From: Acidovorax sp. DW039
GTDB taxonomy: Bacteria > Pseudomonadota > Gammaproteobacteria > Burkholderiales > Burkholderiaceae_C
Reading direction: 5' to 3'
DNA length: 64,000 nucleotides
Assembly (NCBI RefSeq): GCF_037101375.1
Contig: NZ_AP029019.1
Location: forward strand, 2,418,001 to 2,482,000
A program made the position numbers and the translations under genes. Numbering within the stretch: position 1 is the first letter of the stretch; each line of letters opens with the position of its first letter. Shown here in pieces: positions 11,351 to 62,847 of the stretch. A model generated the notes under the pieces. It did not search any database. It saw only the letters and a list, made by a program, of their open reading frames with translations, and was not told the origin of the DNA.

Positions 11351-11452
11351 TGGAGGCCTGACTACGCAGCACTCCTGCCAACGCAAAAGGTTCTACCCCC
11401 ATGACCGCACCTCTGCGGCCAACGTATGCGGGGCCTTTTCTGGAGTTGCTTT

Positions 11453-11947
11453 ATGGACCTCAGCGCGTCAGTCATCCCCCTCTCTCATCGGGCAGAGGTG
11501 CCCGCACATTCGCCCCTGGATGACTGGGAGCGGCTGATGCGCCGCGCTGCTTCTGCCATGCACCTGCAGCAGCCGCGCATGGCGTTGGCGTGTCAGCGCC
11601 AAGCCCTGGCGCTGGTGACCGAGATGGCGCTGGAGCCACCTTTAGGCCGTGAAGACGATTGCGCAGCGGCGTGGGTGGTGTCGCACCTCAACCTGGCAGA
11701 GCTGGCGCAAGAGGCGGGCGACCCTGCCGAATCAGGGCGCTTGCTGTGTGCGGCGCATTCCACCTTGCTGCGCTGGATGGGTGACCCCGCCTGCGCCCCG
11801 GCCTTGCGCCAGGCGGCCCCTCGCCATGCCCGCGAAACCCTGGCGGCGCTGCTGCGCCATGCAGCGGCCTATGGGGCACCAGCCGATGCAGAAGTGACCC
11901 GGCTGGTGGAGGCCGATGTGCCCTGGCCGTCCATGCGGCCTCATTGA
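11453..11947 (+). CDS. OrfX-like hypothetical protein upstream of sodA
   Basis: A soluble, mainly helical protein of 164 aa from ATG 11453, with TGGAG about 8 nt upstream. The alternative ATG at 11426 has no Shine-Dalgarno sequence. It has TPR-like helical pairs (WERLMRRAASAMHLQQPRMALACQRQALAL; VSHLNLAELAQEAGDPAESGRLLCAAH) and no signal peptide. Position and helical character recall the unknown orfX found between fumC and sodA in Fur-controlled pseudomonad operons; that parallel is my inference. It is the first gene after the Fur box. Confidence 0.7.
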   Translation: MDLSASVIPLSHRAEVPAHSPLDDWERLMRRAASAMHLQQPRMALACQRQALALVTEMALEPPLGREDDCAAAWVVSHLNLAELAQEAGDPAESGRLLCAAHSTLLRWMGDPACAPALRQAAPRHARETLAALLRHAAAYGAPADAEVTRLVEADVPWPSMRPH

Positions 11948-12057
11948 GAGCAGCAAACACAACCCCTGGCATTGTTGTTCCGTCTTGTCGTACCGCTCGT
12001 ACTGCCTGCTGCGCAGCGCCTGACCAGAACCGCTTCGCTGAGTTTTGTTCGCCGCTC
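11948..12057 (+). repeat. 110-bp terminal-inverted-repeat element, copy A
   Basis: Begins directly after the TGA of the orfX-like gene. Left end AGCAGCAAACACAACCC and right end GAGTTTTGTTCGCCGCTC are imperfect inverted complements. The interior shares TGTTCCGTCTTGTCGTACCG and GTACTGCCTGC with the copies at 30112 and 61741. It occupies most of the gap between the orfX-like gene and sodA, and so would lie in the sodA leader if the operon is co-transcribed. Confidence 0.8.
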
Positions 12058-12139
12058 CAAATGCTTTAGGGGGTGTGCCGCTTCTGTTCGCATCTGTCGG
12101 TCGCAGCTCCCAACCCTTTTTTCAACGGAGGATGTTCCC

Positions 12140-29295: not shown

Positions 29296-30111
29296 ATGCA
29301 AGATACATCTGCTACCGAGGTCACGCCCAGCCGGGACGATGCGCCCATTGTTTTGCTGCCCCTTACGCTGGCGGACCCTTTCCGCTGGCTTGGTCGGGGG
29401 CTGCAGGATGCCCGTGCAGCGCCGGGCATCGCAGTGTTTTACGGGGTCTGCTTCTGGCTGATGGCGATTGTGCTGGGTTGGGTGTTTCGCACGCGGCCCG
29501 AGTACACCATGTCCTTGGCAAGCGGATGTCTGCTTTTGGGTCCTTTTCTGGCGATGGGCCTGTACGACACCAGTCGAAGGCGCGAGGCTGGTCTGTCCCC
29601 CCAGCTGAGTGAATCCCTCACCTGCTGGGACAGCCACATGGGCAGCATGGGCATGCTGGTGCTGGTTCTGGTGGTGCTGGAACTGCTCTGGGGCAGAGCT
29701 TCACTGGTCGTGTTTGCCGTGTTCTTCAACATAGGCATGCCGTCCACCACGGGGGTGCTGGAGGCTGTCTTCAATCCCCAGAACTGGACGTTTGTAGCGG
29801 TGTATCTGGTGGTGGGCGGTGTGTTTGCCGCGCTGGTTTTTTCCACCTCGGTGGTGTCCATCCCCATGATCCTGGACCGTGATACCGACGCCCTGACCGC
29901 AGGGATCACGAGCATGCGCGTGGTGCTGGAAAACCCGCTCACCCTGCTTTTGTGGGGGGCGCTCATCACCACGCTGGTGGGTGTTTGCCTGTGGTTGGGC
30001 AGTGTGGGGCTGGTGCTGGTGGGGCCGGTGCTGGGGCATGCAAGCTGGCACGCCTATCGTGCGGCAGTGCAGTCTCGCGCCAGTCTTTCCTCGGCCGAGG
30101 CAAGGTCGTAA
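29296..30111 (+). CDS. DUF2189-family integral membrane protein
   Basis: 271 aa with about six hydrophobic helices (FYGVCFWLMAIVLGWVF; MLVLVLVVLELLWG; FVAVYLVVGGVFAALVFSTS; LLLWGALITTLVGVCLWLG). The pattern DPFRWLGRGLQDARAAPGIAVFYG near the N-terminus and GHASWHAYRAAV near the end are typical of DUF2189/BPSS1780-like proteins of unknown function. The stop codon at 30109-30111 directly abuts the 111-bp inverted-repeat element. Confidence 0.82.
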   Translation: MQDTSATEVTPSRDDAPIVLLPLTLADPFRWLGRGLQDARAAPGIAVFYGVCFWLMAIVLGWVFRTRPEYTMSLASGCLLLGPFLAMGLYDTSRRREAGLSPQLSESLTCWDSHMGSMGMLVLVLVVLELLWGRASLVVFAVFFNIGMPSTTGVLEAVFNPQNWTFVAVYLVVGGVFAALVFSTSVVSIPMILDRDTDALTAGITSMRVVLENPLTLLLWGALITTLVGVCLWLGSVGLVLVGPVLGHASWHAYRAAVQSRASLSSAEARS

Positions 30112-30222
30112 GAGCGGCTCACAAAACTCCCTTGGCGTCGTTGTTCCGTTTTGTCGTACCGGCGTACTGCCTGCGACGGAACGCCTAGCCAAGGCTGCTA
30201 CGCTGAGTTTTGTTAGCCGCTC
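30112..30222 (+). repeat. 111-bp terminal-inverted-repeat element, copy B (best preserved)
   Basis: Starts at the base after the TAA of the DUF2189 gene. Left terminus GAGCGGCTCACAAAACTC and right terminus GAGTTTTGTTAGCCGCTC are inverted complements with one mismatch in 18. The interior has GTTCCGT...ACGGAAC and other small dyads, so the transcript could fold into a long branched hairpin. It contains no ORF. Confidence 0.85.
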
Positions 30223-30306
30223 CAAGCCTCACCCGCGGTCTTGTGGAATTCGCGGGGTCTTCCCTGCGGCTGTTACAGTGGTCCTCCAACTCTGAAAGCA
30301 CACACC

Positions 30307-59204: not shown

Positions 59205-59279
59205 GGGTGATTAGCTCAGCGGTAGAGCACTGCCTTCACACGGCAGGGGTCACATGTTCGATCCATGTATCACCCACCA
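59205..59279 (+). tRNA. tRNA-Val (anticodon CAC)
   Basis: 75 nt with encoded CCA. Acceptor GGGTGAT/ATCACCC, D arm GCTC-AGCGGTA-GAGC, anticodon stem CTGCC/GGCAG with loop TTCACAC (anticodon CAC, reads GUG), T arm ACATG-TTCGATC-CATGT. A -10-like CATAAT lies at 59181-59186. Identical to the next copy. Confidence 0.97.
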
Positions 59280-59322: not shown

Positions 59323-59397
59323 GGGTGATTAGCTCAGCGGTAGAGCACTGCCTTCACACGGCAGGGGTCACATGTTCGATCCATGTATCACCCACCA
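59323..59397 (+). tRNA. tRNA-Val (anticodon CAC), second identical copy
   Basis: Same 75-nt sequence as the tRNA at 59205, separated by 43 bp of unrelated spacer. It probably belongs to one tandem transcript with it, ended by the terminator just downstream. Confidence 0.97.
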
Positions 59398-61740: not shown

Positions 61741-61851
61741 GAGCCGCTTACACGACCCGGCGAAGCGGCCCTGGCTTGGCGTTGCGTTGCAGGCAGTACC
61801 AGCGGTACGACAAGACGGAGTAACGACGCCACGGGGGCTGTATCAGCGGCA
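61741..61851 (-). repeat. 111-bp terminal-inverted-repeat element, copy C
   Basis: Read on the minus strand it starts 1 nt after the TAA of the 61853 gene: GTGCCGCTGATACAGCCCC, then GGCGTCGTTACTCCGTC, TTGTCGTACC, TACTGCCTGC, and ends GGGTCGTGTAAGCGGCTC. The termini are imperfect inverted complements. The same order and spacing as the copies at 11948 and 30112. Confidence 0.82.
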
Positions 61852-61852
61852 C

Positions 61853-62677
61853 TTAATCTCCGCCTCCTCCACCGCATCCGCCCCCACAGCCACCGCCGTC
61901 TCCACCACCATCGCTCCCCCCGTCGCCACCGCCAGAGCTGTCCATGCCGCCGAAATCTCCTGAGCTTCCGCTGTAACCACCTTCTGCAAAATCGGTTCCG
62001 CAGTAGGGGGAGCCTCCATCCGTACCCGGGGAGTTGTGGGATCCGAGCAAACGGCAGTCCGGTACGTAGTGAAACCCATTGGGGATCGCAAACTTGGCGT
62101 CCAGCGCAAACAGCAGCGGAAGGCGGCTGGGGGCTTTGGGGTCAATCGATTCTTCCTTGCATGCCCAATACCAGGCGCGGCGCAGCCCGTCGTTGTGTCT
62201 GCTGCGCGAACCCAGGGCTTCAGCGGGAGTGTGGTGAAGGAAGCAGCCCAGAGCCCGCGCGCACCAGTGTTTGTAGCCTTGCGTGTGGAGGATGAACTCA
62301 TGCCAGAGCGCGTCTACGGCCTGGGATGGCATGGCCACAAACTGCTGCCGACTGCGCAGACAGGCCAGAAAGAACTGCCGCAGCCCGCGCTCCACCAGTT
62401 CGCAATCTTTCGGGCTCAGGTGGGGGTAGATAGAGACCAGTTTGCGCTGTAGAAACCTTGGCAGCGGTGCCTCGCGGATGTAGCGTTCTCTGGCAGCCAT
62501 CACCCATTGCTGTGCAAGGGCAAGGGCAATAACACTGGCCACAAAGTAGAACACCCAGGTCCAGCGAGGTGCCCACCATCCGATCAACATGCCAACGATG
62601 GCGATAAGCCATAAGGCGATGGTGGCCTTCAGGGGCAGGTGCCCCCAGCGTAGAAGTGCGTGTTCGGTTTTTGTCAT
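61853..62677 (-). CDS. Membrane protein with glycine-rich-domain (DUF1399-like) fold and Gly/Cys tail
   Basis: 274 aa from ATG 62677 with AGGAGG 6 nt upstream. Two N-terminal helices (ATIALWLIAIVGMLIGWWA; VFYFVASVIALALAQQWVM). A cytoplasmic domain follows, with AVDALWHEFILHTQGYKHWCAR and GCFLHHTPAEAL, the pattern of the glycine-rich/DUF1399 domain. The last 50 residues are almost only Gly, Ser and Asp with spaced cysteines (GGGCGGGCGGGGGD), preceded by YCGTDF. Function unknown; the tail could bind metal or be disordered. Confidence 0.75.
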   Translation of the reverse strand: MTKTEHALLRWGHLPLKATIALWLIAIVGMLIGWWAPRWTWVFYFVASVIALALAQQWVMAARERYIREAPLPRFLQRKLVSIYPHLSPKDCELVERGLRQFFLACLRSRQQFVAMPSQAVDALWHEFILHTQGYKHWCARALGCFLHHTPAEALGSRSRHNDGLRRAWYWACKEESIDPKAPSRLPLLFALDAKFAIPNGFHYVPDCRLLGSHNSPGTDGGSPYCGTDFAEGGYSGSSGDFGGMDSSGGGDGGSDGGGDGGGCGGGCGGGGGD

Positions 62678-62847
62678 AGTCCCTCCTTTTTGTTGTTGTA
62701 GTAAGGGCATTGAATGCCATTTTTATGACGGTTTGGTGACTGTCATAAATGTCTTTGGCTTCCGGCAAAACAATGGGTGATGCTCCCCGTCAGAAGAGCA
62801 TCTTGCGCCGCCGCCCCTTGCATCGGCGCTTGCACCCTGGCTGGAGT

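Follow-up and report, generated by a model that had tools for sequence, protein, structure and literature searches.

REP/REPIN sequences, which go with RAYT, are extragenic palindromes often located near gene 3' ends; they are shorter than the element described here and are not known to duplicate a TNA target. It is as extragenic palindromes, often near gene 3' ends, that they resemble it (PMC2817692, partial text). Similarly, ERIC and YPAL/RU-2 of enterobacteria are hairpin MITEs that can sit at gene 3' ends, a likeness drawn from their descriptions, and they can affect mRNA decay (PMC10969869 and PMC2229807, partial texts). The closest described system is the Correia element of Neisseria (CREE or NEMIS). 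CREE are presented as MITEs whose mobiliser is undetermined, Correia repeats are stated to occur only in Neisseria, and CREE carried in mRNA are reported to be RNase III substrates and to be processed (PMC2649163, partial text). Correia repeats have been filed as IS630-derived (PMC2817692, partial text), and variants for comparison are given in PMC5039591 (partial text). The term Correia does not occur in PMC7272453, on ProQ (term search).

Our starting point is a window of 64,000 nucleotides of Acidovorax sp. DW039 (the whole stretch of DNA that was analysed; positions below refer to it), which carries three copies of an element of about 111 bp. The copies and their surroundings are as follows.

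11426..11947, + strand: ORF of 173 aa upstream of copy 1, without Pfam family
11948..12057, + strand: copy 1, decayed (82.9 bits), directly behind the TGA stop at 11945-11947
12058-12060: right flank of copy 1, CAA
29296..30111, + strand: DUF2189 membrane-protein gene upstream of copy 2 (Pfam E=4e-38)
30109..30111, + strand: left 3-bp target of copy 2, which is the TAA stop of the DUF2189 gene
30112..30222, + strand: copy 2, the best preserved, with the full hairpin GAGCGGCT...AGCCGCTC (113 bits, E 5.1e-29)
30223-30225: right target copy of copy 2, now CAA
61738-61740: its complement is CAA, the other flank of copy 3
61741..61852, - strand: copy 3, decayed (88.1 bits), directly behind a TAA stop
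61853-61855: its complement is this TAA stop
61853..62710, - strand: glycine-rich ORF of 285 aa upstream of copy 3, without Pfam family

A preliminary description of this DNA had located the three copies correctly, except that copy 3 ends at 61852 and not at 61851. The 18-bp inverted ends with one mismatch that it reported for the best copy are indeed those of copy 2, and the distance of 0-1 nt that it gave between stop codon and element proved to be 0 nt in all three cases when the sequence was read directly. For copy 3, this distance depends on the 285-aa ORF, as a simple codon-usage caller preferred an overlapping frame (gap -10). The assignment of the gene preceding copy 2 to DUF2189 also holds; the other two upstream genes, given as orfX-like and as a glycine-rich membrane protein, are ORFs without Pfam family. 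The conserved core of copy 2 is TTGTCGTAC-N4-GTACTGCCTGC. The core pattern, with up to three mismatches, retrieves copies 1 and 3 (0 matches in 100 shuffles) and passes over copy 2, which has a shorter loop. A covariance model built from 72 relatives detects copies 1-3 with E from 5e-29 to 1.5e-20, and its only other match in the 64 kb has E=0.44. The predicted fold of copy 2 reaches -54.7 kcal/mol (z -5.9 versus shuffles), and the mRNA of the DUF2189 gene (29296..30111, +) would carry this hairpin; taken singly, the sense strands of copies 1 and 3 do not fold far better than shuffles (z -0.5 and -0.6). The window also holds two close tRNA genes of equal model score, at 59205-59276 and 59323-59394.

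The family is large in the genome of origin. BLAST with copy 2 gave 40 scored matches among 80 candidates, end and core patterns together define at least 76 clusters, and 70 copies were confirmed by profile. In a covariance-model census that scored 150 of 3199 first-look candidates, 80 matches have E<=0.01 and 79 have E<=1e-3. Among the candidates scored, all 80 are confined to contig C1 (4.85 Mb); contig C2 (0.36 Mb), whose length would predict about 5-6, has none. Most DDE_Tnp_1 matches of this genome (n=21) are on contig C2.

The element is short and multicopy, lacks a transposase, has terminal inverted repeats (ends GAGCGGCTNACAMAAC) and is flanked by a target-site duplication, which together bear out its earlier likening to a mobile MITE, as does the IS-like character of its ends. 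The duplication measures 3 bp: identical 3-mers are present on both flanks in 16 of the 56 full-ended copies, and identical words of length 1, 2, 4, 5, 6 or 8 in 0-2 of them. The flanking triplets are mostly T-N-A, chiefly TAA or TTA, with T at -3 in 52 copies, A at -1 in 47, T at +1 in 44 and A at +3 in 46. Their middle base is equal on the left and on the right in 34 of the 56 copies, a number that none of 5000 shuffles reached (mean 17.5). The pgk locus allows a comparison of filled and empty sites: the Acidovorax sp. DW039 gene reads TAA, element, TAA, and the genes of two same-genus genomes (L322, L325) end at TAA without element. As the empty sites have the same TAA, the stop codon existed before the insertion, which rebuilt it. 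More generally, since TAA and TGA are themselves TNA triplets and the element begins with G (TTA|G giving TAG), an insertion within a stop codon does not alter the protein, and the duplication of a 3-bp TNA target makes an exact stop register possible. Two other candidate empty sites were set aside, the DUF2189 locus because the relatives end in TGA elsewhere and locus 632982 of the genome of origin because the comparison was not clean. At five same-genus loci (L188, L246, L284, L288 and L300), the stop TGA consists of a T and the element's own first bases GA, with a 37-nt register. In another genus of the order (G398:C11:56591-56947), four cores lie exactly 110 bp apart, apparently as tandem whole elements.

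The preliminary description recognised no named relative of the element. This has to be revised, as it is homologous over its full length to Correia/NEMIS and its ends match an IS5-family lineage. When plasmid records were searched by blastn, Eleftheria (90%), Cupriavidus metallidurans and Paraburkholderia yielded full-length copies, and Neisseria gonorrhoeae records matched in the core, at 82.7%. The Neisseria match is a Correia element with TATAGTGGATTAAATTTAAACC ends. Covariance model R1, whose training set contains no sequence from Neisseria records, aligns with the gonococcal element over positions 1-111 (E=1.3e-18); it also recovers order-wide loci from outside its training set (L377, L382, L406 and L410; E 8.5e-7 to 3e-18). 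Both elements share the length (that of the 104-108 bp form of CREE), the hairpin, the inner arm AACAAAA and the core CTTGYCGTAC-N5-GTACTGYCTGCG, so that the strict conserved core and hairpin of CREE are present in the Acidovorax element. However, the outer ends of Correia elements are TATAGTGGATT and those of the Acidovorax element GAGCGGCT, and the 26-bp Correia repeat TATAGTGGATTAAC(A)AAAACC... is absent as an end of the latter, only the inner AACAAAA being common to both. The target is TA for Correia elements and a 3-bp TNA here (identical flanks of length 2 in only 2 of the 56 copies, against the 16 of length 3), and a 10-nt 3' bulge of the Acidovorax-type element is missing in the gonococcal copy. 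Finally, CREE are reported chiefly from positions upstream of genes (PMC10969869, partial text), whereas the Acidovorax element often lies in sense behind stops.

The distribution of the family is wide and uneven. Of 399 genomes of the order, 52 (28 of 159 genera) contain exact matches to the core pattern, at up to 47 places per genome, and none of the 399 contains the reversed pattern. Three of 369 genomes in a class-level sample match: that of origin, a second from its family, and G744, which lies outside the order. The locus in the last of these (L406, E=3e-18) is directly behind a TGA stop in sense, at distance 38, and reflects either a horizontal transfer or a greater age of the family. 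In 1.33 Mb of DNA around one gene from 80 mostly comamonad genomes, no model match was better than E=0.26 and the profile found one partial match (L105); copy density varies greatly. Phage records contained no match to the element.

What could mobilise it? Among 30 DUF4096 loci of the same genus, one (L222) has the MITE ends in inverted orientation, 874 bp apart and with TTA and TAA flanks, around two overlapping ORFs with DUF4096 (E=4e-18) and DDE_Tnp_1 (E=1e-12). Relatives of this transposase were found by protein search in 681 plasmid records, the best being annotated as IS5 family transposase, and at three loci in a scan of viral contigs. Of these, three plasmid loci (L423, L424, which is identical to it, and L425) and the three on viral contigs (L420-L422) were examined, and all have similar ends. 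The matching ISs, whose hosts are a same-genus genome (L222), Comamonas and Pseudomonas bubulae plasmids and three IMG/VR contigs, measure 863-874 bp and have inverted ends GAGYSGCTAACACMAC, which in L222 and its relatives differ from the MITE end by 2-4 mismatches in 16. Their flanks are TNA (TAA/TTA), identical on both sides in five of the six distinct insertions. They differ from the MITE in carrying a transposase in two overlapping frames, which in L222 were read as separate ORFs, and in lacking the hairpin core. An end pair like that of L222, at three mismatches per end, also occurs once in the 1.33 Mb of control DNA, so that L222 alone would be weak evidence, and it is the five transposase relatives that carry the case. 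Matching paired ends are absent from 20 of the 21 DDE_Tnp_1 matches in Acidovorax sp. DW039, in which no IS with MITE-like ends was found, and from 29 of the 30 genus DUF4096 loci; three further DUF4096 stretches of the DW039 chromosome or of the same genus gave no convincing end pair. The genome of L222 also contains a related but incomplete IS copy (L414). Other same-genus DUF4096 ISs (L210, L213, L220 and L235; 868-932 bp, ends such as GAACCTGTTC or GAACTTATCC) have TTA/TAA duplications, the target type of the MITE, and ends with 8-10 mismatches in 16 from it. Within the IS5 family, members of the IS1031 group prefer TNA and duplicate 3 bp (PMC12016507, partial text); the element shares both features, and the matching IS is a candidate member of the group. 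The matching ends and TNA flanks in IS5-family ISs make an IS5-type transposase the most likely vehicle of the MITE, which the matching IS would mobilise in trans. With IS5-type ends in a sister lineage, the derivation of Correia repeats from IS630 would come into question.

Compensatory changes support the hairpin. In an alignment of 72 of 93 non-redundant sequences (21 odd, decayed or false ones were left out by hand), a structure of 37 pairs has 85.7% of its cells paired, versus 73.8% in shuffles. In 31 pairs both partners vary, and compensatory cells number 331, where shuffles give 113.6 and slid controls 67-110. A clean case is given by an orthologous copy (L252 and L316), in which the apical stem GTAC/GTAC has become GTGC/GCAC in both genomes. 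As RNA, the element would form one long interrupted hairpin, its internal loop being CUUGYC / UGYCUGC and its apical stem GUAC/GUAC; the conserved unpaired parts, as read from the alignment, are CGUUG, CUUGYC, UGYCUGC and the 10-nt 3' bulge. Similar hairpins are predicted for both DNA strands, with different unpaired parts, and structure alone therefore does not account for orientation. In seven ortholog groups picked by eye, the identity of the element (0.947-1.000) exceeds that of the preceding 180 bases (0.901-0.959) in 7/7, these bases being the end of a called sense gene in five groups, and it also exceeds that of the next 60 bases in 7/7; in two of the seven, the element is slightly surpassed in identity by sequence lying farther downstream. 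Such conservation indicates that some sites were kept across species splits, and could in part result from homogenisation between copies. Rfam gave no match in the window at the gathering threshold, and a single one, far below the cut-off (E=4.8), for one 161-bp stretch.

Tabulating the distance and orientation of the copies relative to stop codons, using a simple codon-usage caller instead of annotation for the genome of origin and for relatives, we found that 26 of the 70 profile-confirmed copies start directly behind a stop in sense and that three end at a stop in antisense, one of these doing both. Within -2..+1 nt, 30 copies are in sense and four in antisense (p 6e-6; one copy is counted in both). 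The orientation that had been described as constant is so in the window but not genome-wide, and 37 of the 70 copies are at no stop codon: about half of the family is scattered without register, as the counter-case named in the preliminary description would have it, and the register, though strong, is not shared by all copies. Similarly, 63 of 108 same-genus loci are in sense at a stop and six in antisense: in 44 loci the core follows a sense stop at 39 nt, in 63 at 37-41 nt, and in six it has the corresponding distance to a stop on the other strand. This set results from the removal of two of 110 loci without closing stem, and retains two false core matches in coding sequence (L182 and L199) that add to neither count. 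In other genera, with slightly wider limits, 17 of 32 loci are in sense at a stop and one in antisense; the 32 do not include the DW039 loci L379, L407, L409 and L411-L413, and three of them come from one genome (G128). Orthologous copies in these sense and antisense counts are not independent events. An independently annotated case is found in Eleftheria terrae, where a LysR CDS ends at base 2503 and the element starts at 2504. Among non-coding TNA, TWA and YTWAR sites, 8.7, 6.1 and 4.8%, respectively, are at stops. As random non-coding TNA sites predict only 5-9%, the target rule permits the register and explains neither its frequency nor the orientation; the register and orientation noticed in three copies are thus real and far above a site-based null.

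We consider it probable that the element is a MITE of a Correia superfamily and that its copies in sense at stops persist as RNA hairpins of a 3'-UTR or intercistronic region. This non-autonomous element (about 111 bp) inserts at TNA, duplicates 3 bp and rebuilds the stop, with the protein unchanged. Its lineage would be sister to that of the Neisseria elements, in a superfamily extending across Betaproteobacteria, and its likely mobiliser is the IS5-family transposase (DUF4096 and DDE_Tnp_1) of the 863-874-bp IS. Sense copies directly behind stops would then be kept preferentially, as the first part of a 3'-UTR or intercistronic region. There the hairpin would most probably exert its effect on the mRNA, by double-strand RNase processing and/or by protection of the upstream cistron, to judge by the analogy of CREE with RNase III. 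A 3'-UTR role, which had been among the possibilities raised at the outset, appears to us the most plausible reason for the bias, with RNA as the probable functional form.

The strongest competing explanation, although we regard it as unlikely, is targeted insertion, in which the machinery would prefer stops or transcript ends in one orientation, for example through coupling to transcription or termination, and no RNA function would be needed. Relative age bears on this. Sense-at-stop copies of the genome of origin have a lower nearest-neighbour identity than the others (median 0.876 vs 0.929, Mann-Whitney p 0.0075), tandem ++ copies are likewise older than tandem -- copies (p 0.005), and a split set at 0.88 identity yields only p=0.08. 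The greater age of sense-at-stop copies speaks for retention rather than targeting as the origin of the orientation bias, which is indeed weaker in the youngest half (10 sense, 3 antisense) than in the oldest (20 sense, 1 antisense); selection would thus account for the bias. However, young copies are enriched at stops too (13 of 35, versus 5-9% expected). In addition, three of the six matching IS copies adjoin the end of an open frame of at least 100 codons or of an annotated CDS: L222 adjoins the stop of a 126-codon frame, L421 the stops of 170- and 475-codon frames on both strands, and the first base of L425 follows immediately on an annotated CDS of 41 aa. These two observations leave room for an insertion preference of the enzyme, but six IS copies are too few to judge, target duplications are of both TAA and TTA type, copies outside exact stops show no tandem orientation preference (12 ++ vs 12 --), and the structure was conserved after insertion.

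Retention could also have a neutral basis. Any TNA would be hit and the insertion tolerated where neither gene nor promoter is struck, the position behind a stop being the safest TNA, with no function involved. The fact that TAA and TGA are TNA sites and that insertion rebuilds the stop fits this explanation, which is nonetheless doubtful, more so than targeting: it predicts equal numbers of sense and antisense copies, where 30:4, 63:6 and 17:1 are observed in the three sets, and it gives no reason to expect compensatory pairing in old copies.

Less probable again is a portable intrinsic transcription terminator, in spite of the 3' position, the stable hairpin and the T-run GAGTTTTGTTAG in its 3' arm. 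There is no T-tract directly after the hairpin, either in a scan of copy 2 or in the sequences of other copies; the one terminator-like site between 30000 and 30400 lies outside the element; and at pgk an apparent native terminator is seen, by eye, downstream of the element. Moreover, the next co-directional gene is within 50 nt in 7 of 19 sense-at-stop ++ copies of the genome of origin, which, together with the missing T-tract, makes termination unlikely as the main role. Finally, integron attC sites are likewise folded single strands, hairpins located behind stops in a fixed orientation, with the arm consensus RYYYAAC/GTTRRRY, but we rejected an attC-like nature as highly implausible given the 3-bp target duplication, the IS with matching ends, the occurrence as single copies between ordinary and even divergent genes, and arms that, by eye, are unlike this consensus.

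Retention as an RNA hairpin can be carried one step further, and only tentatively. A hairpin carried on IS5-type ends throughout Betaproteobacteria may dock in sense at stops and so supply unrelated genes with a conserved 3'-UTR or intercistronic module that has one RNA-binding partner. The end of Correia elements (AGTGGATTAACA) is similar to that of the IS (AGTGGCTAACAC), and these elements may be a derived branch of the older system, moved by the same kind of enzyme.

Neither relatives of Correia repeats beyond Neisseria nor a position at stop codons came up in the literature searched, which is weak evidence of absence as subscription papers were not covered. IS-derived MITEs are a known kind of element; the lineage, its position, its spread and the Correia link are, as far as we could check, new. 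Relatives across an order and an IS5-type lineage give Correia repeats an evolutionary context and a candidate enzyme, and offer many non-pathogenic hosts in which to study their origin and function. If the RNA structure is kept by compensatory change and the copies are kept in sense at stops, this family would be a clear case of transposons supplying bacterial 3'-UTRs.
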